Shown: piece by piece, positions 4,720 to 36,946 of the stretch
Position numbering within the stretch: the stretch's first letter is position 1
How the letters are laid out: each line of letters opens with the position of its first letter
Source of the DNA: Beijerinckia sp. 28-YEA-48
GTDB lineage: Bacteria; Pseudomonadota; Alphaproteobacteria; Rhizobiales; Beijerinckiaceae
NCBI RefSeq assembly: GCF_900104955.1
Contig: NZ_FNSI01000001.1
Span: 4,436,001 to 4,500,000, forward strand
Length of the DNA: 64,000 bases
Direction: 5' to 3'
Made by a program: the position numbers and the translations under genes
Notes under the pieces: model-generated
Told to the model about the DNA's origin: nothing
The model's database searches: none
What the model saw: only the letters and a program-made list of their open reading frames with translations

Positions 4720-5904
4720 ATGGTGGACGCGCCGCTACCGCTCTCTCGCTACAAGGTCCTCGACCTGACGCGGGCGCGCGCCGGGCCGACCACGGCACGC
4801 CAGCTCGCCGACTGGGGCGCTGACGTCATCAAGGTGGAAATGGCCGAGGGTGGTGAGGGCGGCGGCTTCGACGGCCATCGCGATTCCGCCGATTTCCAGA
4901 ACCTGCATCGCAACAAGCGCAGCCTGACCATCGATCTCAAGAGCGACGACGGCCGGCGCATCTTCAATCGTCTGGCCGAAAACGTCGATGTGATCGTCGA
5001 GAATTTTCGGCCCGACGTGAAACATCGCCTGGGTATCGATTATGAGTCGATCCGCGCCCTCAATCCACGCATCGTCTACGGCAGCATTTCCGGCTTCGGC
5101 CAGGATGGCCCCTATGCGGGCCGTCCCGGCGTCGATCAGATCGCGCAGGGGATGAGCGGGTTGATGTCGGTCACCGGCCTGCCCGGCCAGGGCCCGGTGC
5201 GCGCCGGCGCCGCCGTCGCCGACATGTCGGCTGGGCTTTATCTCTCCATCGGCATTCTGCTGGCGCTGATCGAACGCGAACAGTCCGGCCAGGGCCAGTG
5301 GGTGCAGACCTCGCTGGTCGAATCGCTGATCGCGGTGATGGATTTCCAATCGGCCGCCTGGTTGTTCGACCGCAAGGTTCCGGTCCAGGCTGGCAACAAC
5401 CATCCCTATTTCATTCCGACCGGGACCTTTCCAACCAAGGACGGGCACATCAACATCGGCTCGGGCACCCAGTCGTCCTGGGCGCGGTTGTGCAAGGCTC
5501 TTGGCGCCGAAGATCTACAGCACCGCCCCGCCTATGCCGATGCCGAGAAGCGCCGCGAACATCGCGACGAGCTGAACGAAGAGCTATCCGCCATTCTGAG
5601 CACGCGCAGCAGCGCCGAATGGGTCGAGGCGCTGAATGCGGCCAGCGTGCCGTGCGGACCGATCTACAGCATCGACCAGGCTTTCGCCGACCCGCAGGTG
5701 AAACATCTGGGCATCGCCACGCCGATCAAACATCCGCGCCTGGGCCGTCGCGAAATCGTCGGCCAGCCGATTCACATGTCGCGCACACCCTGGCAGATGC
5801 GCCGCGTGACACCGGATGCCGGCGAACATTCCAGCGAAATCCTGCGCGAACTCGGCTTCAGCGACGACGAGATCGCCGGACTGCGCGACCGCAAGATCAT
5901 CTGA
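4720..5904 (+). CDS. CaiB/BaiF family (class III) CoA-transferase
   Basis: A 394-residue class III CoA-transferase, which moves CoA between carboxylic acids through an aspartyl-CoA thioester intermediate. Family hallmarks are the opening LSRYKVLDLTRARAGPTTARQLADWGADVIKVE, given here only by its parts (VLDLTR, GADVIKVE), the segment NKRSLTIDLK, VDVIVENFRPD, and GSISGFGQDGPYAGRPGVDQ. The catalytic Asp is expected in GAAVADMSAGLY around residue 168. The length is normal for the family. The stop is 14 bases before the crotonase-fold gene, so the two are probably one operon handling the same acyl-CoA. The substrate cannot be read from sequence; formyl-, carnitinyl-, succinyl- or other CoA exchange are all possible. 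Confidence 0.9.
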   Translation: MVDAPLPLSRYKVLDLTRARAGPTTARQLADWGADVIKVEMAEGGEGGGFDGHRDSADFQNLHRNKRSLTIDLKSDDGRRIFNRLAENVDVIVENFRPDVKHRLGIDYESIRALNPRIVYGSISGFGQDGPYAGRPGVDQIAQGMSGLMSVTGLPGQGPVRAGAAVADMSAGLYLSIGILLALIEREQSGQGQWVQTSLVESLIAVMDFQSAAWLFDRKVPVQAGNNHPYFIPTGTFPTKDGHINIGSGTQSSWARLCKALGAEDLQHRPAYADAEKRREHRDELNEELSAILSTRSSAEWVEALNAASVPCGPIYSIDQAFADPQVKHLGIATPIKHPRLGRREIVGQPIHMSRTPWQMRRVTPDAGEHSSEILRELGFSDDEIAGLRDRKII

Positions 5905-5918
5905 ACAGGACTAAACTC

Positions 5919-6713
5919 ATGAACGCCTCGAACGGCAAAATGATTGGCGACAAGGACGGCGCCATCGGCTGGATCATCTTCAACGATCCCAAGCGGCACA
6001 ACGCCATCAGCCACGAAATGCGCCTCGATCTCCTCGGCATCCTCGGCGACTTCGAGAATGACGACGCCATCCGGGTGGTCGTGCTGCGCGGCGCCGGCGA
6101 CAAATCCTTCGTTTCCGGCGCCGATATTTCGCAGTTCGAGGGCTATGCCAACAATCCGGAACGGCAGAAAGATATGGCGGCCACGACCGCGCGCCTTTTG
6201 GATCGCTACGACACTTACCGCAAGCCGCTCATCGCCATGATCCAGGGCTATTGCCTGGGCGCCGGCGTTGGCACGGCGCTCGCCGCCGATCTGCGCATCG
6301 CCTCTGACAAAGCCCAGTTCGGCATTCCGGCCGGACGACTTGGTGTCGCCTATCCGCTGCACTCCGTGCGGCGGCTGATCGAAATCGTCGGCTCCAGCAA
6401 CGCCACCGAAATGCTGTTCACCGCCAACCGCTATGCGGCGGCAGAGGCGCTGGCAATGGGCCTCGTCAACAAAGTCGTGTCTACGAGCGAGCTGGAAGCG
6501 ACCGTGCGCACTTTGGCGATGACCATTGCCGACAATGCCCCACTCACCGTGCGAGCGTCCAAGATCGCCATTCGCGAAGCGATGAAGCCCGCGGCAGAAT
6601 GCGACTTCACCACCGTCGCCGCGGCCGTCGCCGCCTGCTTCGCCAGCCAGGACCATGCCGAAGGACGCAAGGCGTTCGCGGAAAAGCGCAAGCCGGTTTT
6701 CAACGGGCGGTGA
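5919..6713 (+). CDS. Crotonase-superfamily protein lacking both hydratase glutamates
   Basis: A 264-residue member of the enoyl-CoA hydratase/isomerase (crotonase) superfamily. The oxyanion-hole region FVSGADISQF near residues 64-73 and the turn GYCLGAGVGTALAADLR are recognisable and align without gaps to rat mitochondrial hydratase. In that alignment the two catalytic glutamates (Glu144 and Glu164 of the rat enzyme) are replaced: the first by Gly in AGVGTAL, the second by Ala in FGIPAGRLG. Simple hydration of enoyl-CoA is therefore unlikely, and another crotonase chemistry such as isomerisation, hydrolysis or decarboxylation must be considered. The ATG at 5919 has a CAGGA ribosome site and follows the CoA-transferase stop by 14 bases, implying a shared acyl-CoA substrate. 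Confidence 0.85.
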   Translation: MNASNGKMIGDKDGAIGWIIFNDPKRHNAISHEMRLDLLGILGDFENDDAIRVVVLRGAGDKSFVSGADISQFEGYANNPERQKDMAATTARLLDRYDTYRKPLIAMIQGYCLGAGVGTALAADLRIASDKAQFGIPAGRLGVAYPLHSVRRLIEIVGSSNATEMLFTANRYAAAEALAMGLVNKVVSTSELEATVRTLAMTIADNAPLTVRASKIAIREAMKPAAECDFTTVAAAVAACFASQDHAEGRKAFAEKRKPVFNGR

Positions 6714-6787: not shown

Positions 6788-7930
6788 TCACGCCTTCTCA
6801 ACGATGAGCGCGCTGCCAAGCCCCCCGGCGGCGGCGATGGTGGCGAGGCCGCGTGCACCGGCCTCTTCCCGTTGCAACTCATGAAACAGACGCACGGCGA
6901 GGATGCCGCCTGAAGCGCCGATGGGATGGCCACGTGACAGCGCGCCACCACCGCGATTGATGCGGCTGGAATCAAAGCGTAGCGCATCGACCGTGCCGAG
7001 CGCCTGTGCTGCGAAAGCTTCCATGATTTCGACAGCCGAGATTGCGTCCGCAGTCGTTTGCACCTGCGCCAGAACCGCTTTCGCCGCTTCCGTACTCATC
7101 AGGCCCGGCAGCACCGGATCGCCGGCCACGCGCTTGGCCGCAACGATACGAACGGCGCTCGCCCCCTTTAGCTTCTTCAAAGCCGCGTCGGAGACAACAG
7201 CCAGAACCGCGGCGGCATCGGCTTCGACGGCAATGGTCGCGGCAGTCAGCGCATGAGCGCCCGCGCCCGCTAAAGCTGGCAGGCGTGCGCAGGTTTTTTC
7301 TGAAAGTCGGCGGCCAAAGGCATCGTGATCGAGGCCCGCGACAGGGACGATCTCCCGGTGCAAATGCGCGCGCGCGGCAAGCGTCTTGGCGTGGCTCTCG
7401 ATCGCAAAGGCCTCTTGACGACTGCGGGAAATGTCGAGCCTTACGGCTAGGTCATGGGCCGAGGCGATCATGTCCGGATCGCGATCAGCCCAGGGCGTGA
7501 ACGGCGGGCGCTGATATTCGACCGCTTCTTCATCGTCACGCAGCGGCCGACGCAGGCGCAGCGGCGAGCGGCTGAAACTTTCAACGCCGCCGCACAGGAT
7601 CACATCTGCGGTGCCTGCCAGAATGCGCTCGGAGGCGGCAATGATGGCATCGAGTCCGGCGCAACATTGCGTGTCGATGGTCTGCGCCGGAACGCGCTGC
7701 GGCAGGCCCGCCGCCAAGCCGACGACGCGGGCCGGATTGCCACCGCCATAGAGCGCATTACCAAGGATGATCTCGTCGACGCTGTCAGGCGCGATGCCTG
7801 TCTCTTCAAGGATAGCGCCGATCAGCGGCGCGGCGAGATCGTGGACGCCAAGTGCCGCGAAGGCGCCGTGGCGCGGCGCCACCGCCGTGCGCTTGGCCGC
7901 GACAATCCAAGCGGTCCTTGCCCCGGTCAC
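6788..7930 (-). CDS. Thiolase-family protein without the C-terminal catalytic Cys
   Basis: A 380-residue thiolase-fold protein. The nucleophile Cys lies in TQCCAGLDAI near residue 90 and the catalytic His in GGALSRGHPIGASG near residue 337. The second catalytic Cys, normally in a motif such as TLCIGGGQG, is absent: the aligned stretch reads TIAAAGGLG, so Cys is replaced by Ala. This makes ordinary thiolysis or acetoacetyl-CoA synthesis doubtful. The start is the GTG at 7930, overlapping the upstream ligase stop as GTGA, and the domain begins at VTGARTAWIV. It is the last gene of the bioMNY-ligase-thiolase operon. A similar trio (bioY paralogue yhfU, ligase yhfT, thiolase yhfS) is known in Bacillus subtilis, which supports a link to biotin or its pimeloyl precursor. 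Confidence 0.88.
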   Translation of the reverse strand: MTGARTAWIVAAKRTAVAPRHGAFAALGVHDLAAPLIGAILEETGIAPDSVDEIILGNALYGGGNPARVVGLAAGLPQRVPAQTIDTQCCAGLDAIIAASERILAGTADVILCGGVESFSRSPLRLRRPLRDDEEAVEYQRPPFTPWADRDPDMIASAHDLAVRLDISRSRQEAFAIESHAKTLAARAHLHREIVPVAGLDHDAFGRRLSEKTCARLPALAGAGAHALTAATIAVEADAAAVLAVVSDAALKKLKGASAVRIVAAKRVAGDPVLPGLMSTEAAKAVLAQVQTTADAISAVEIMEAFAAQALGTVDALRFDSSRINRGGGALSRGHPIGASGGILAVRLFHELQREEAGARGLATIAAAGGLGSALIVEKA

Positions 7931-9408
7931 GGCAGCCGCTCCAAAACGCCACTGTCGAGCCGGCGCTTCAACTCGGCGAAATCTGTTTTCCCGGAACGGG
8001 TCATCGGCCAATCCGCGGTTTGATAGACGTGGCGCGGGATCATGGTCAGAGGCAGGCTCTCCCGGCAATGGGCGATCAGAGCGCTAGCCGAAACGGGGGC
8101 GTCCGTCTTGACGATGGCCACGAGCCGCAAGCCGCGCACCGCATCAGGCTCACCCAGAACGGCGGCGGCAGTTACATCGGGATGGCGCGCCAGCACGGCT
8201 TCAACGCCTTCGGGACTGATGTTCTTGCCCGACGAGATGATCATCCGGTCGGCGCGGCCAACCAGATGCAGAAAACCCTTGGTGTCGAGAAAACCGACAT
8301 CACCGACGGAGATGGCGTCGCCATGGCGCCGCAGGAGCGTTTCGCCCTGCGGCGCATAGCTCATAAAAACCATCGGGCTGGCGACGTAAACAAGCCCGGT
8401 CTCGCCGGCGGCAAGCGCCTTTCCATCGCCATCGCGAATGCTGAGCGTAACGGAGCTAAAAGCGCGGCCAACGGAGGTTTCCGGCGCGCCTTCGCTTTGC
8501 TTGCGCACGGCGATGAAGCTCAACTCGGACGCGCCGTAGAATTCAGCAATCTCGGCCTGCGGAAAAGCCTGGCGCAGCAGGGCGTGATCATCAGCACCGA
8601 GCTTGGCGCCCGACGAGAGAATCACGCGCAGCCCCAGTTGCACACCCGATGCCAAGGCGCTTTCCGCCATCAGACGAAGCTGCGAGGGCACACCATAGAG
8701 GATCGTCGCGCCATGGTCCTGGCCCTGGCGGATGGCGCGGTCTGGCCGAAAGGCACGGGACATCAACAGTGTTGCGCCGACATGCACCGCATGGGCGGCC
8801 GCATAGAGAAACAGCGAATGGGTCATCGTGCCTGGCGCCAGCAGGACATCATCGGCGGTGACGCCAAACTCTTCCTGTTCGACGGCGAAACTTTCGAGCC
8901 AGGAGCGATGATGGCGGCGATAGCCTTTCGGCAGGCCGGTCGAGCCGGAGGTGAAGCCGACATAGAAGGGGGCGAGATCGCTGACATCGCGTGGCGACGC
9001 CAGGACATCGTCGGTCTTGGAAAAGGCAGCCATCAGATCATCGACGTTCGGATGGTCCGAGGGCACGTGCATAAGATGCGGATGGATCAGGCGTTGGCCG
9101 CTGATCAAGAGATCGGGACGCGCCCGATCGACGATCGACTGGCCCATGGGGGCGGGCCAGTCCGGATCCAGAATCTGCGCCTCGCGGCCGGTGGCGATGG
9201 TGGCCAGAAACAACGGTATGAAGCCGGGGCAATTCCGCAGTTGAAGGGCGACGGATTGTCCGCGCGGCACAGCCGCATCGATGCGATGCGCCAATTGATC
9301 GCGTTGCTTTAGAAGTTGCGACCAAGTGATCTCCGTCGCATCACAGACGACCGCGAGACCCGAAGGCCTTTGCGCCGCATGGTTCGCGATCGTCGATCCG
9401 ATGATCAT
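7927..9408 (-). CDS. AMP-dependent acyl-CoA synthetase/ligase of biotin-transport operon
   Basis: A 493-residue class I adenylate-forming enzyme, expected to activate a carboxylic acid as an acyl-AMP and then as an acyl-CoA. The P-loop-like motif FTSGSTGLPKG sits near residue 152, a YGASE motif near residue 294, GDVGFLD near 372, the hinge GRADRMIISSGKNISP near 387, and the C-terminal catalytic Lys in MTRSGKTD near 472. The ATG at 9408 overlaps the bioY stop (ATGA) and its own stop overlaps the thiolase start (GTGA), so translation of the three is coupled. The context favours pimelate or another biotin precursor as substrate, by analogy to YhfT next to a BioY paralogue in Bacillus, but the acid specificity is not visible. 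Confidence 0.9.
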   Translation of the reverse strand: MIIGSTIANHAAQRPSGLAVVCDATEITWSQLLKQRDQLAHRIDAAVPRGQSVALQLRNCPGFIPLFLATIATGREAQILDPDWPAPMGQSIVDRARPDLLISGQRLIHPHLMHVPSDHPNVDDLMAAFSKTDDVLASPRDVSDLAPFYVGFTSGSTGLPKGYRRHHRSWLESFAVEQEEFGVTADDVLLAPGTMTHSLFLYAAAHAVHVGATLLMSRAFRPDRAIRQGQDHGATILYGVPSQLRLMAESALASGVQLGLRVILSSGAKLGADDHALLRQAFPQAEIAEFYGASELSFIAVRKQSEGAPETSVGRAFSSVTLSIRDGDGKALAAGETGLVYVASPMVFMSYAPQGETLLRRHGDAISVGDVGFLDTKGFLHLVGRADRMIISSGKNISPEGVEAVLARHPDVTAAAVLGEPDAVRGLRLVAIVKTDAPVSASALIAHCRESLPLTMIPRHVYQTADWPMTRSGKTDFAELKRRLDSGVLERLP

Positions 9409-9974
9409 GGATAAGACCTTGGATCGGACTTTGCTGCCGCCGCGATCGTCTGATCCGGCATCAGCGAAGCAAGATAGGCGCAGGCCAGCGCCTTCAACAC
9501 ATCGCCCGGCACAAAGACGAGATCAGCCAGCAGCGCCTGCTGCCAGGACATGCTGGTCTTCCAGACAAGACCGGCGATGCCGGCAAAATGGATGACGACT
9601 ACACCGCCGAGGAAACAAGCCAGCAACGCGCGCAGGAAAACACCTTTGCCGCTTCCTAACCGCATCAGCCATCCGACCACGAAAGCGCCAATCGGATAGC
9701 CGATCAGATAGCCGGCCGACGGGGTGAACAGAACGCCCAATCCGCCACGGCCACCAGCCAGCAGCGGCGCGCCCAAGAGCACGACGAACAGAAACAGCGC
9801 GACACTGGCAAAGCCCAACCGCGCACCGAGAAAAACACCGGCCATCATCACGCCGAGAGTCTGCAAAGTGATCGGCACGCCGCCGGCAAGGGGAATGTCG
9901 AGACGGGGGAACAGACCAAGCGCCGCCATCAAAGCGGCGAACAGGCTGACGCGAACCATGTCACGCAATTGCAC
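9405..9974 (-). CDS. bioY: Biotin transporter substrate-binding S component BioY
   Basis: BioY is the integral membrane biotin-binding subunit of an energy-coupling-factor transporter. The 189 residues contain about six hydrophobic segments and the family pattern around PLAGGVPITLQTLGVMMAG (about residues 28-46) and the later PSAGYLIGYPIGAFVVG (about 85-101). The start is GTG at 9974, eight bases after an AGAGGA ribosome site at the bioN tail; ATG at 9959 is a possible alternative. The gene follows bioN with a 2-base gap and overlaps the ligase start by four bases, giving a complete BioMNY transporter encoded in one operon with two acyl-CoA enzymes. Confidence 0.94.
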   Translation of the reverse strand: MQLRDMVRVSLFAALMAALGLFPRLDIPLAGGVPITLQTLGVMMAGVFLGARLGFASVALFLFVVLLGAPLLAGGRGGLGVLFTPSAGYLIGYPIGAFVVGWLMRLGSGKGVFLRALLACFLGGVVVIHFAGIAGLVWKTSMSWQQALLADLVFVPGDVLKALACAYLASLMPDQTIAAAAKSDPRSYP

Positions 9975-9976
9975 GT

Positions 9977-10597
9977 CTATTTCCTCTTCTCGGTTGTCAG
10001 GTTCATTTCAAAGCCGCGCGCCACCAAGGCTTCAGCGGCATGATCGGCCAGGCGCAGAACATCGCTGAGGAAAGGCGCCAGAAGACGCAGCGGCGGCCGC
10101 CGACCAGTGCGGGCGCGCCAGGCTTCCTCTCGCTTGTTCCATTCGCTCATGATCACCGGAATGAAGCGCAGCATCAGAGCGACCGCGAGCGCCAGCCGGC
10201 GCTCGTCGAGCCCGAGCGGGCGCAGCAGCCTGAATAAAGGCTGCAACGCATCCATCATGGCGAGCATCGGCGTCGTCGCGGTGACGAGATCGGCGAGCGC
10301 GATCATCGCCACCAGACGCAACAATGTGGCGAGCGCCATCTCCCAGCCCGACGTATAAATTTGCAGAAGAGCAATGCCGATCAGGAAGGGCGCCAGTGGA
10401 CGATAGAGTTTCAGGCGCGCGCCAGCGGCGGAAATGGTGAAGACATAGAGAGCAAGAATAACCACACAAGCGACGAGGAGCGGCGGCCACTGGCTCATCC
10501 AGCCAAGCAAAATCGAAGTGACCGCCAGAACGGCGAGCTTAGGACCGGCGTTGATCCGATGCAGCCAGGTCTGCTGAGCCACATGCGGCGCGATCAT
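9977..10597 (-). CDS. bioN: Biotin ECF transporter transmembrane subunit BioN
   Basis: BioN is the T component that couples BioY to the BioM ATPase. The 206-residue protein has several hydrophobic helices (for example LAVLAVTSILLGW and LLVACVVILALYVF) and the cytoplasmic ATPase-coupling helices with Ala-Arg-Gly signatures expected of EcfT proteins, visible as EAWRARTGRRPP near residue 157 and AEALVARGFE near 189. The ATG at 10597 overlaps the bioM stop as ATGA. A longer frame exists upstream but it would run into bioM, so the coupled ATG is preferred. Confidence 0.93.
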   Translation of the reverse strand: MIAPHVAQQTWLHRINAGPKLAVLAVTSILLGWMSQWPPLLVACVVILALYVFTISAAGARLKLYRPLAPFLIGIALLQIYTSGWEMALATLLRLVAMIALADLVTATTPMLAMMDALQPLFRLLRPLGLDERRLALAVALMLRFIPVIMSEWNKREEAWRARTGRRPPLRLLAPFLSDVLRLADHAAEALVARGFEMNLTTEKRK

Positions 10598-11286
10598 GCG
10601 ATGGCCTGCGCGTCGCAATGGGCGCGATAGGCCCGCAACACAGTCTCGGGTGTGCCATCGCCGGCGATCTGTCCATCATCGAGCCAGACGATCCGGTCGA
10701 AATCCTGCATGGCGTCGAGATCGTGGCTCGCCATGACGATCTGCTGCGGCAAATTGAACAACAGCCGCAGGAACATGTTGCGGGCCCGGAGATCAAGGCT
10801 CGAGAACGGTTCGTCGAGCAGGACCAGCGCCGGCTCGCAGACGAGAATGGCGAGAATGCACAAATGCTGCTTCTGGCCGTCGGACAGTTCGGCAACTGAG
10901 CGTTCGCACCAATCGGCGCAATTGTGACGTAGCAGAAAGGCGCGCGCCGCCGCCGTCGCTTCAGCCGGCCCCATGCCGCGCTCGCGCAGGCCAAAGGCGA
11001 TTTCCTCAAGACTGGTTGGGAAAACGATCTGATGCTCGGGATTTTGAAAAATGAACCCGACACTGCGCGGCAATTGCGCTCGGCTGGCTTTCGTTTCCAG
11101 ACCATGCACGGTCACGTGGCCCTGGTCGGGCAGCAGGAGCCCATTGAACAGCCGCAGCAGCGAGCTTTTGCCGGCGCCGTTGACACCGATCAGGCCAATG
11201 CGGCGCTCGTCGAGTTGCAAACTCAATTGATGCAGCACAGGGCGGCCATTGCGCGCCAGCGTTACATCCTTCACGTCAATGGTCAT
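10594..11286 (-). CDS. bioM: Biotin ECF transporter ATPase subunit BioM
   Basis: BioM is the ABC ATPase that powers biotin import with BioN and BioY. The 230 residues hold a Walker A motif GVNGAGKSSLLRL near residue 38, a Q-loop in FQNPEHQIVFPTS near 79, the signature ELSDGQKQ near 136 (a D in place of the usual second G-type position, common in EcfA proteins), a Walker B PALVLLDEPFSSLD near 158, and a switch His in MASHDLD near 190. The start ATG at 11286 gives the normal N-terminus MTIDVKDVTL; an in-frame extension of 28 codons upstream lacks domain character. It is the first gene of the operon, 19 bases downstream of a 20-base palindrome. Confidence 0.94.
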   Translation of the reverse strand: MTIDVKDVTLARNGRPVLHQLSLQLDERRIGLIGVNGAGKSSLLRLFNGLLLPDQGHVTVHGLETKASRAQLPRSVGFIFQNPEHQIVFPTSLEEIAFGLRERGMGPAEATAAARAFLLRHNCADWCERSVAELSDGQKQHLCILAILVCEPALVLLDEPFSSLDLRARNMFLRLLFNLPQQIVMASHDLDAMQDFDRIVWLDDGQIAGDGTPETVLRAYRAHCDAQAIA

Positions 11287-11304
11287 GTGCCGGGTCGCGC
11301 CGCC

Positions 11305-11324
11305 TGAATATGCTGCTGTATTCA
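11305..11324. promoter_or_regulatory. Palindrome upstream of bioM, candidate operator
   Basis: TGAATA at 11305-11310 and TATTCA at 11319-11324 form a perfect inverted repeat separated by eight bases (TGCTGCTG), 19 bases upstream of the bioM start. The size and symmetry suit a dimeric repressor. It does not match the BioR TTATMKATAA consensus known in Rhizobiales nor a long BirA-type site, so the regulator is unknown and the role is only inferred. Confidence 0.35.
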
Positions 11325-11486
11325 CAGCTGCGCGCCCTTCTATCAAGCTGGATGCCGCAGCGCAAAACAACTCGGGGCGGTGGTCCGGGGAACTTTATTT
11401 TCGAGAACTTGTTTCACCTGACGGGGCATGTATGGATTTCCCAATATCAATTTCCAAAGGGCGATCGGCCCAAATGCGAGGAAACC

Positions 11487-12464
11487 ATGCTGGCTGGCTG
11501 GTATGAACGTTGTGGTCCGGCCGATGAGGTGATTTCCGTCGGCGAGATCGAAAAGCCGCTCGCCGGTCCGGGCGAAGTGCTTGTCCGCGTTCATGCCTCC
11601 GGCATCAATCCGTCCGACTACAAGCGCCGCGCCAACGTAAAGGCCGGCATGGAATTCCCACGCATCGTGCCGCATTCGGATGGCGCCGGCACCGTGGCGG
11701 CGCTCGGCCCTGGCGTCAGCAATTATCGCGTCGGCGACCGGGTGTGGATGTTCAACGCGCAATGGGCCCGGCCGATGGGCTCGGCGGCGGAATTCGTCAG
11801 CCTGCCTGCCACGCTGATCCGGCCGCTGCCGAACTGCGTCAGTTTCGAGGAAGGCGCGTGCCTGGGCATTCCAGCCATGACCGCCTATCATGCGATTTTC
11901 CGCGACGGCCCGGTGAAGGGGCAAACCATCTATGTACCGGCGGCGACAGGCCGTGTCGGCGCCTATGCCATTCAATTCGCTCGCTGGGGCGGCGCCCGCG
12001 TGATCGCCAGCACCGGATCGCGCGACAAGATGGATGCGATCAAAGCACTTGGCGCCGATGTGGTTCTCGACCGCAACAGCGATCTGTCGAAAAGCATTCT
12101 AGAGCATGCGGATGGGCGCGGCGTCGACCGCGTCATCGAGATCGATTTCGGCCATCAGATCGGCTTTGACGAGCAAATCGTGGCTGAAGGCGGCACGATC
12201 GTATCATATGGCGCGGCCGCGCCCGGAAAAGCCGAGATCACGCTGTCTCCCAGGCGCGCGCGCAACATGTCGGTGCATTTCATCTTCGTCTATATGTTGT
12301 CGGATGCACAGAAGCAGACGACCTGCGATGGCATTCTGCAGGCGATCCGCGACAAGGCCTTGCGCCACCGGATCGCCGGCACGGTGCCGCTGATGGATCT
12401 GGCGCGCGCCCATCGCGAGGCGGAAAGCCAGGCGGGCACCGGCCATATGGTCGTCACTCTGTAA
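11487..12464 (+). CDS. Zinc-type alcohol dehydrogenase-like / NADPH:quinone reductase family oxidoreductase
   Basis: A 325-residue medium-chain dehydrogenase/reductase of the quinone-reductase branch. A GroES-like N-terminal half carries GEVLVRVHASGINPSDYK (about residues 31-48) and the nucleotide-binding half a glycine motif in AATGRVGAYAIQFARWGGARVIAS near 150-173. No structural or catalytic zinc cysteine cluster is visible, as expected of the quinone-reductase class. The ATG at 11487 follows a GAGGA ribosome site; upstream codons are not conserved in character. It is divergent from the biotin operon and ends ten bases before the YqaA-type gene, so the two may be co-transcribed. The physiological substrate is not predictable. 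Confidence 0.88.
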   Translation: MLAGWYERCGPADEVISVGEIEKPLAGPGEVLVRVHASGINPSDYKRRANVKAGMEFPRIVPHSDGAGTVAALGPGVSNYRVGDRVWMFNAQWARPMGSAAEFVSLPATLIRPLPNCVSFEEGACLGIPAMTAYHAIFRDGPVKGQTIYVPAATGRVGAYAIQFARWGGARVIASTGSRDKMDAIKALGADVVLDRNSDLSKSILEHADGRGVDRVIEIDFGHQIGFDEQIVAEGGTIVSYGAAAPGKAEITLSPRRARNMSVHFIFVYMLSDAQKQTTCDGILQAIRDKALRHRIAGTVPLMDLARAHREAESQAGTGHMVVTL

Positions 12465-36652: not shown

Positions 36653-36731
36653 GCCACACCTGCCAGAGTTACGGCCGGAGCCGGCCTTGCCACCTTGCAT
36701 TCGCAGAATCGCCTCTGTACGGTCATAATTG

Positions 36732-36897
36732 TTGGTGCCCCAGCGATGGGGTGAAACGGGAATGCGGTGAGGGAAACCGATGCCGCAGCTGCCCCCGCAA
36801 CTGTAAGCGATGAGCTGACTTCGCACCATGTCACTGGGTGATCACCCCGGGAAGACGCGAAAGCAGCGACGATCCGCGAGCCAGGAGACCGGCCAAC
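36732..36897 (+). ncRNA. Cobalamin (AdoCbl) riboswitch
   Basis: The region carries the conserved features of the B12 riboswitch in order: GGTGAAACGGGAAT, CGGTGAGGGAAACCG, GCAGCTGCCCCCGCAACTGTAAGCG (cited by CTGCCCCCGCAACTGT), CACTGGG, CCGGGAAGACGCG and the B12 box GAGCCAGGAGACCGGCC at 36878-36894. It ends about 50 bases before btuB. When AdoCbl binds, translation or transcription of btuB and probably the downstream permease genes should fall. Confidence 0.95.
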
Positions 36898-36946
36898 ATC
36901 TTCGTTTTCTCTCAAGCCGTCGGTGGGATGGCAGGAGGCTATAGTG

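Follow-up and report, generated by a model that had tools for sequence, protein, structure and literature searches.

Why an operon for biotin uptake should also encode an acyl-CoA ligase and a thiolase homologue is the question raised by a locus of Beijerinckia sp. 28-YEA-48. The locus lies in a 64-kb stretch of contig NZ_FNSI01000001.1, referred to here as the window, in which five genes run on the minus strand from position 11286 to position 6788. They are bioM, for the ATPase of an energy-coupling factor (ECF) biotin transporter (10594..11286; ABC_tran 86.6 bits in Pfam; best NCBIfam match an ECF ATPase model at 151.7 bits, below its cut-off), bioN, for the transmembrane T component of the EcfT/CbiQ family (9977..10597; CbiQ 55.4 bits in Pfam), bioY, for the biotin-specific S component (9405..9974, GTG start; BioY 120.4 bits in Pfam), a gene for an AMP-forming acyl-CoA ligase nearest to PRK07638, the YhfT kind (7927..9408; Pfam AMP-binding and AMP-binding_C), and a gene for a thiolase homologue (6788..7930, GTG start; Pfam Thiolase_N and Thiolase_C). 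The bioM/bioN junction is an ATGA overlap, a 2-base gap separates bioN from bioY, the bioY/ligase junction is again ATGA, and the ligase and thiolase genes overlap by the 4 bases GTGA. These junctions, borne out by the coordinates, support the single tight operon proposed in the initial annotation; the word "fused" used there was wrong, as the five genes are separate. Of 10 related pairs whose reading frames were called, 8 share the 4-base ligase/thiolase overlap and 2 overlap by 23 bases.

The transporter was identified by an ATP-binding cassette ATPase, a CbiQ/EcfT-type T component, and a BioY S component encoded together, as in other BioMNY transporters. BioMNY ECF transporters import biotin. 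Residues 10-168 of the window BioY align to the solved biotin transporter 4dve (E 1.4e-20), and a BioN match is present in 26 of 37 related loci. Biotin import, as initially annotated, is still the probable function of the window transporter, judging by its family membership and the 4dve alignment. The difference from the known system is the two additional enzymes encoded behind the transporter genes.

Other holders of the ligase-thiolase pair were sought with the ligase in 219 genomes of the order (E 1e-75; 11 holders) and with the thiolase in 367 genomes of the class (E 1e-58; 9 holders); both figures include the host, and both thresholds miss divergent members. The gene bioY was found near the pair in 16 of the 18 non-host places from these searches, which were fetched with flanks, and in 9 of 11 plasmid loci, which were taken from among 126 plasmid records matching the thiolase. 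A scan of genome contigs gave at least 80 thiolase loci, and all residue, tree, and neighbourhood counts drawing on it hold among the matches listed; 8 of 80 lacked the second catalytic Cys, with bioY at 7 of these 8 versus 0 of the other 72. Because these 7 were first noticed through bioY, the contig-scan loci were left out of the unbiased figure, which is 25 of 29 alphaproteobacterial relatives chosen regardless of bioY (16/18 and 9/11). The co-occurrence search suggested in the initial annotation thus showed that the association is not unique to this genome. With all loci included, bioY lies near 32 of 37 relatives of the window thiolase versus 0 of 60 ordinary thiolase loci of comparable length from the contig scan (those of at least 9 kb; 12 shorter ones of 72 were dropped). 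Gene order varies: bioMNY-ligase-thiolase in the window, Microvirga, and Azospirillum, bioY-ligase-thiolase without adjoining bioMN in Paracoccus and Fictibacillus, ligase-thiolase-bioMNY in Salipiger, and ligase-thiolase facing bioY-bioN-bioM in Thioclava and Aestuarium. That the pair stays near bioY despite rearrangement is stronger evidence than neighbourhood alone. One beta-proteobacterial bin (L035) also has the association, which is real; known in outline for Bacilli, it is extended here to Alphaproteobacteria and to this bin.

The thiolase homologue was then compared with canonical thiolases (Zoogloea ramigera biosynthetic thiolase and FadA). Its predicted model (predicted local distance difference test score, pLDDT, 91.6) has the thiolase fold, with TM-scores of 0.88-0.92 by query length among 50 listed chains. 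The nucleophile Cys89 and the histidine of the GHP motif (His335) are shared with the canonical enzymes, whereas the CxG cysteine and the NEAF asparagine are missing: the equivalent of Cys378 is Ala366, that of Asn316 is Met303, and Asp86 and Gln88 stand beside the nucleophile. In the available part of PMC3406046, Cys89 is the residue of the covalent intermediate, Asn316 and His348 form the oxyanion hole for the enolate, and Cys378 is the base. Among the window protein and its 120 best listed protein relatives, a list headed by the window's own protein, all 121 sequences have Cys89, the histidine of GHP, Met303, and Ala366.

Residues were counted in 38 clade members from loci (window included) and in 72 other thiolases; the 72 and 8 of the clade members come from the contig scan. 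The Cys378 equivalent is gone in 38/38 clade members (Ala in 29, Gly in 9) and retained in 72/72 others, and Asp86 and Gln88 are present in all 38. Two subtypes were distinguished by motif. In subtype A (n = 29), to which the window thiolase belongs (MEAFA, IAAAGG), 28 members have Met and 1 has His in place of Asn316; Asn stands there in 9/9 members of subtype B (Rhizobium, Sinorhizobium, Azospirillum, and Fictibacillus, with the NEAF asparagine kept) and in 72/72 other thiolases. Acyl-pocket positions 119 and 275, which are Met in 72/72 and 70/72 ordinary thiolases, are changed in the clade. A quick maximum likelihood tree, supported by the Shimodaira-Hasegawa-like approximate likelihood ratio test (SH-aLRT) without bootstrap, placed all 38 thiolases in one set (SH-aLRT 99), with subtype A at SH-aLRT 100. 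Among NCBIfam models, the general TIGR01930 is best for the window thiolase (270.4 bits) and PRK06690 is next (220.7 bits, under its curated cut-off of 498); three other places in the host genome outscore it against PRK06690, so this model alone cannot show its kinship. The window protein is not an ordinary thiolase. The remaining Cys and His would suffice for acyl transfer, with subtype A lacking the base and one enolate ligand. The thiolase-like protein TLP1 of Mycobacterium smegmatis likewise combines the thiolase fold with altered motifs, but its CXS and GHP motifs are not conserved according to the same part of PMC3406046, whereas the nucleophile and GHP are kept in the window protein.

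PRK07638 was the best of 100 models matching the window ligase, at 333.6 bits against a curated cut-off of 518, and the next-best place in the host genome scored 209.5 bits, 124 bits lower; the window ligase was not counted as belonging to that family. Positions T153, S154, G155, T157, and K161 of the P-loop, Y291-G292, S294-E295, G369-D370, R385, and K474, which we take to have their usual functions as adenylation motif positions, are invariant in 34 aligned rows, and the ligase should for that reason adenylate an acid. The N-terminus is shorter in two aligned Rhodobacterales members. A predicted model (pLDDT 82.8), used for fold search only, has the superfamily fold, with MenE, amide synthetases, and malonyl-CoA synthetase among the nearest folds. 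In the record of Sinorhizobium meliloti Ak57 (L018, 6526-7990), no gene is annotated for the ligase, whose match is split into two parts, in different frames, between bioY and the thiolase gene; the ligase looks broken there.

The initial annotation had drawn a parallel with the yhfU-yhfT-yhfS genes of Bacillus, and this parallel holds in the kinds of genes and in the clade of the thiolase. In both the window and a Fictibacillus locus (L054), bioY, ligase, and thiolase genes are adjacent on one strand and in the same order. The Fictibacillus ligase (537.6 bits) and thiolase (509.2 bits) pass the cut-offs of PRK07638 and PRK06690, models which we take to stand for B. subtilis YhfT and YhfS; 1 of 14 control genomes passes the cut-off of each. 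Just before the Fictibacillus bioY is a BirA-like operator with 15 of 18 half-site positions (0/200 shuffles), scored against strings that we take to be the BirA consensus. The Fictibacillus thiolase sits with the window thiolase in the 38-member set (SH-aLRT 99). As the Fictibacillus version passes both cut-offs behind such an operator, the window cluster is assigned to the yhfU-yhfT-yhfS kind; the yhfS-yhfT operon of Staphylococcus aureus is another of the closest known systems. The window operon differs from the Bacilli cluster in having its own BioM and BioN, in a thiolase of subtype A instead of B, in scores below the curated cut-offs of PRK07638 and PRK06690, and in the absence of a BirA-like or BioR-type operator from the upstream region searched. 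Shared BirA control of yhfS-yhfT and bioY is already known in print. In the parts available, PMC6391492 has the S. aureus yhfS-yhfT promoter, in a reporter strain, repressed by S. aureus BirA with biotin, PMC7235819 places both the pair and the biotin synthesis operon of S. aureus under BirA, and the review PMC11089781 gives BirA control of yhfS-yhfT in B. subtilis and S. aureus; the enzymes are called only putative in the passages of PMC6391492 and PMC7235819. Among open-licence papers, none was found that mentions this ligase-thiolase pair together with alphaproteobacterial BioMNY in its title or abstract. Compared with the literature found, the co-occurrence of the pair with absent bioD in this sample and the separate thiolase clade without a catalytic base are apparently new.

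Genes for biotin synthesis were searched for in the host and in other holders of the pair. The host assembly (completeness 99.59%) gave no match to bioD at E 0.001. The first of its two strong bioF-family matches is 5-aminolevulinate synthase (634 bits, over 338.55); the second is an alpha-oxoamine synthase relative with bioF as its best model (340.7 bits), below the cut-offs of bioF, glycine C-acetyltransferase, and serine palmitoyltransferase, and no host bioF was found over its cut-off. A third match is weak (26 bits). The host apparently cannot make biotin from scratch. The wider sample of 25 genomes that carry the pair consisted of the host, 10 further genomes of the order, 7 of the class, and 7 to which named loci belong; in one of the genomes (G251) bioY is not near the pair. 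In these, bioD was over its cut-off in 0/25 (bioA, bioC, and bioW were not searched) and bioB in 4/25. The gene birA was found in 24/25, the exception being a 1.8-Mb metagenome bin, so biotin would still be attached in the normal way; replacement of BirA by the ligase and an acyltransferase attaching biotin to protein was ruled out on this basis. In line with these results, the part of PMC8914248 available counts 98 rhizobial strains out of 181 that possess genes for biotin transport but none for its synthesis. Apart from the window operon, the host carries a dethiobiotin/biotin salvage locus (L001, 132-2445) with a GntR-type regulator, a second bioY, and bioB in a row and BioR-type boxes at 132, before the regulator, and at 874, before bioY.

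The reading preferred here, held tentatively and at a little less than an even chance, is a biotin-scavenging operon in which the ligase forms the CoA thioester of biotin or a vitamer and the thiolase homologue has become an acyltransferase. Biotin would be imported by BioMNY, and the ligase would activate the carboxyl of biotin itself, or of a vitamer taken up with its ring intact or nearly so, as the AMP and then the CoA thioester. The thiolase homologue would take the acyl group onto Cys89, with His335 helping, and then release it to water or to a different acceptor. Carbon-carbon bonds would no longer be made or broken as by an ordinary thiolase, since the catalytic base is lost throughout the family and the enolate-binding asparagine is lost in the window's subtype. 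The system would mostly serve cells unable to make biotin from pimelate. That the ligase and a Claisen-dead thiolase process biotin or a vitamer in a step after uptake is possible, if on the unlikely side; the ligase would then make biotinyl-CoA or, for a vitamer with a changed side chain such as bisnorbiotin, the corresponding CoA ester, and the thiolase homologue, acting as an acyltransferase through Cys and His, would trap, repair, or pass on the vitamer. Such a step would give auxotrophs usable biotin beyond what BioMNY and BirA alone provide and would explain the function of yhfS-yhfT in Bacilli. The question is narrowed to which acid the ligase uses and what the thiolase homologue does with the CoA ester.

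Several observations weigh against a biotin-scavenging role. The nearest folds of the ligase have varied substrates and do not point to one. Three Rhizobium-type loci (L016, L025, and L172) carry ligase, thiolase, thioesterase, and medium-chain dehydrogenase/reductase (MDR) genes with no bioY nearby, and two further loci (L165 and L068) are likewise without bioY near the pair. Complete loss of Claisen chemistry is less clear in subtype B, as the asparagine is kept there. Matches to bioD of 21-25 bits, far under the cut-off of 83.3, occur in 8/25 pair genomes. The contrast in bioD within the order (over the cut-off in 64/219 genomes and in 0/11 pair holders; Fisher p 0.036) is uncorrected for kinship, with 8 of the 10 holders other than the host in one family, and treats G021, which the thiolase search alone brought up, as a non-holder even though no bioD is present there. 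Finally, B. subtilis and S. aureus make biotin yet have the pair, in the passages available of PMC7235819, PMC6391492, and PMC11089781, so auxotrophy is not required.

The alternative that survives best is an adaptation of lipid metabolism to biotin shortage. With acetyl-CoA carboxylase, a biotin enzyme, as the bottleneck, fatty acids from outside would be activated by the ligase, and the thiolase homologue would deliver the acyl group to acyl carrier protein or some other acceptor and so save malonyl-CoA. Such acyl transfer would be well matched to a thiolase fold left with only Cys and His, and staphylococcal vraA and vraB are presumably the same genes as yhfT and yhfS. The vraA-vraB-vraC operon is called a fatty acid metabolism operon in the part of PMC11730646 available, and repression of the Bacilli pair by BirA with biotin (PMC6391492 and PMC7235819, in part) implies that it is made under biotin shortage. 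Persistence of the pair near bioY through several rearrangements, however, is more readily explained by a common substrate than by a common trigger, and acyl-pocket positions 119 and 275 are altered, though the change does not say what is bound. Adaptation of lipids is thus considered possible but unlikely, and biotin or a vitamer is somewhat favoured over fatty acids as the substrate.

Placement of ordinary beta-oxidation genes by chance in a biotin operon, acting on unrelated acids, would agree with the annotations as acyl-CoA synthetase and thiolase and with folds typical of both superfamilies. It is improbable given the clade-wide loss of the thiolase base, the separate clade, the difference in bioY neighbourhood between related and ordinary thiolase loci, and the occurrence of an enoyl-CoA hydratase match in 1/37 related loci versus 5/60 controls. 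The chain processing of beta-oxidation type in the initial annotation is accordingly doubtful, because the residues required for ordinary chain shortening are gone from the thiolase. Uptake of pimelate or another early precursor and its activation with CoA, with BioF, BioA, BioD, and BioB acting afterwards, as also suggested there, would account for a ligase beside a transporter and for the presence of both the pair and a biotin synthesis operon in S. aureus (PMC7235819, in part), but it is strongly disfavoured in the host and contradicted by the bioD, bioF, and bioB results above, since pimeloyl-CoA would have no use where bioD does not pass its cut-off. Unless something not yet recognised stands in for bioD, pimelate activation cannot be what the operon is for in these hosts. 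The Alphaproteobacteria with the pair and without bioD thus speak against the usual precursor idea for them.

The region upstream of the operon was searched for regulatory sites. Against BirA operator consensus strings that we take to be representative, the best match upstream of bioM had 11 of 18 half-site positions, and no sigma-70-like promoter was found at 11100-11500; BirA-like, BioR-type, and promoter searches together gave no regulator site before the window operon. The intergenic region between bioM and a divergent reductase gene (11287..11486) has one 9-base palindrome at 11459-11470 and no BioR-type box. A BioR box of the TTATCTATAA type, as seen in probe sequences in the available part of PMC4554459, was found nowhere in the 64-kb window, and BioR control of the operon was rejected; the bioMNY operon of P. 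denitrificans is likewise without a BioR site in that part of the paper. An RNA regulator was also rejected, as the only Rfam match at the gathering score is a distant cobalamin riboswitch (36716-36911, plus strand, 135.2 bits).

On the other side of the operon, genes for a CaiB-type CoA transferase (4720-5904) and an enoyl-CoA hydratase (5910-6713) run toward the thiolase gene on the plus strand (4720-6713). The former has matches in 0/37 related loci versus 2/60 controls and the latter at the frequencies given above, and both were rejected as parts of the system and are chance neighbours judging by the related loci. The divergent gene beside bioM (11487..12464, plus strand, start chosen by eye) encodes an MDR-family reductase, quinone reductase/enoyl reductase-like (TIGR02824, 134.6 bits, below its cut-off). 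In counts uncorrected for kinship among loci, matches to an MDR reductase (7/37 versus 0/60 controls), a thioesterase (4/37 versus 0/60), and a nitroreductase-family protein (10/37 versus 0/60) suggest that these may be partners of the pair. The nitroreductase, never found together with the MDR reductase, occurs at L017, L020, L022, L024, L026, L031, L034, L165, L168, and L169.

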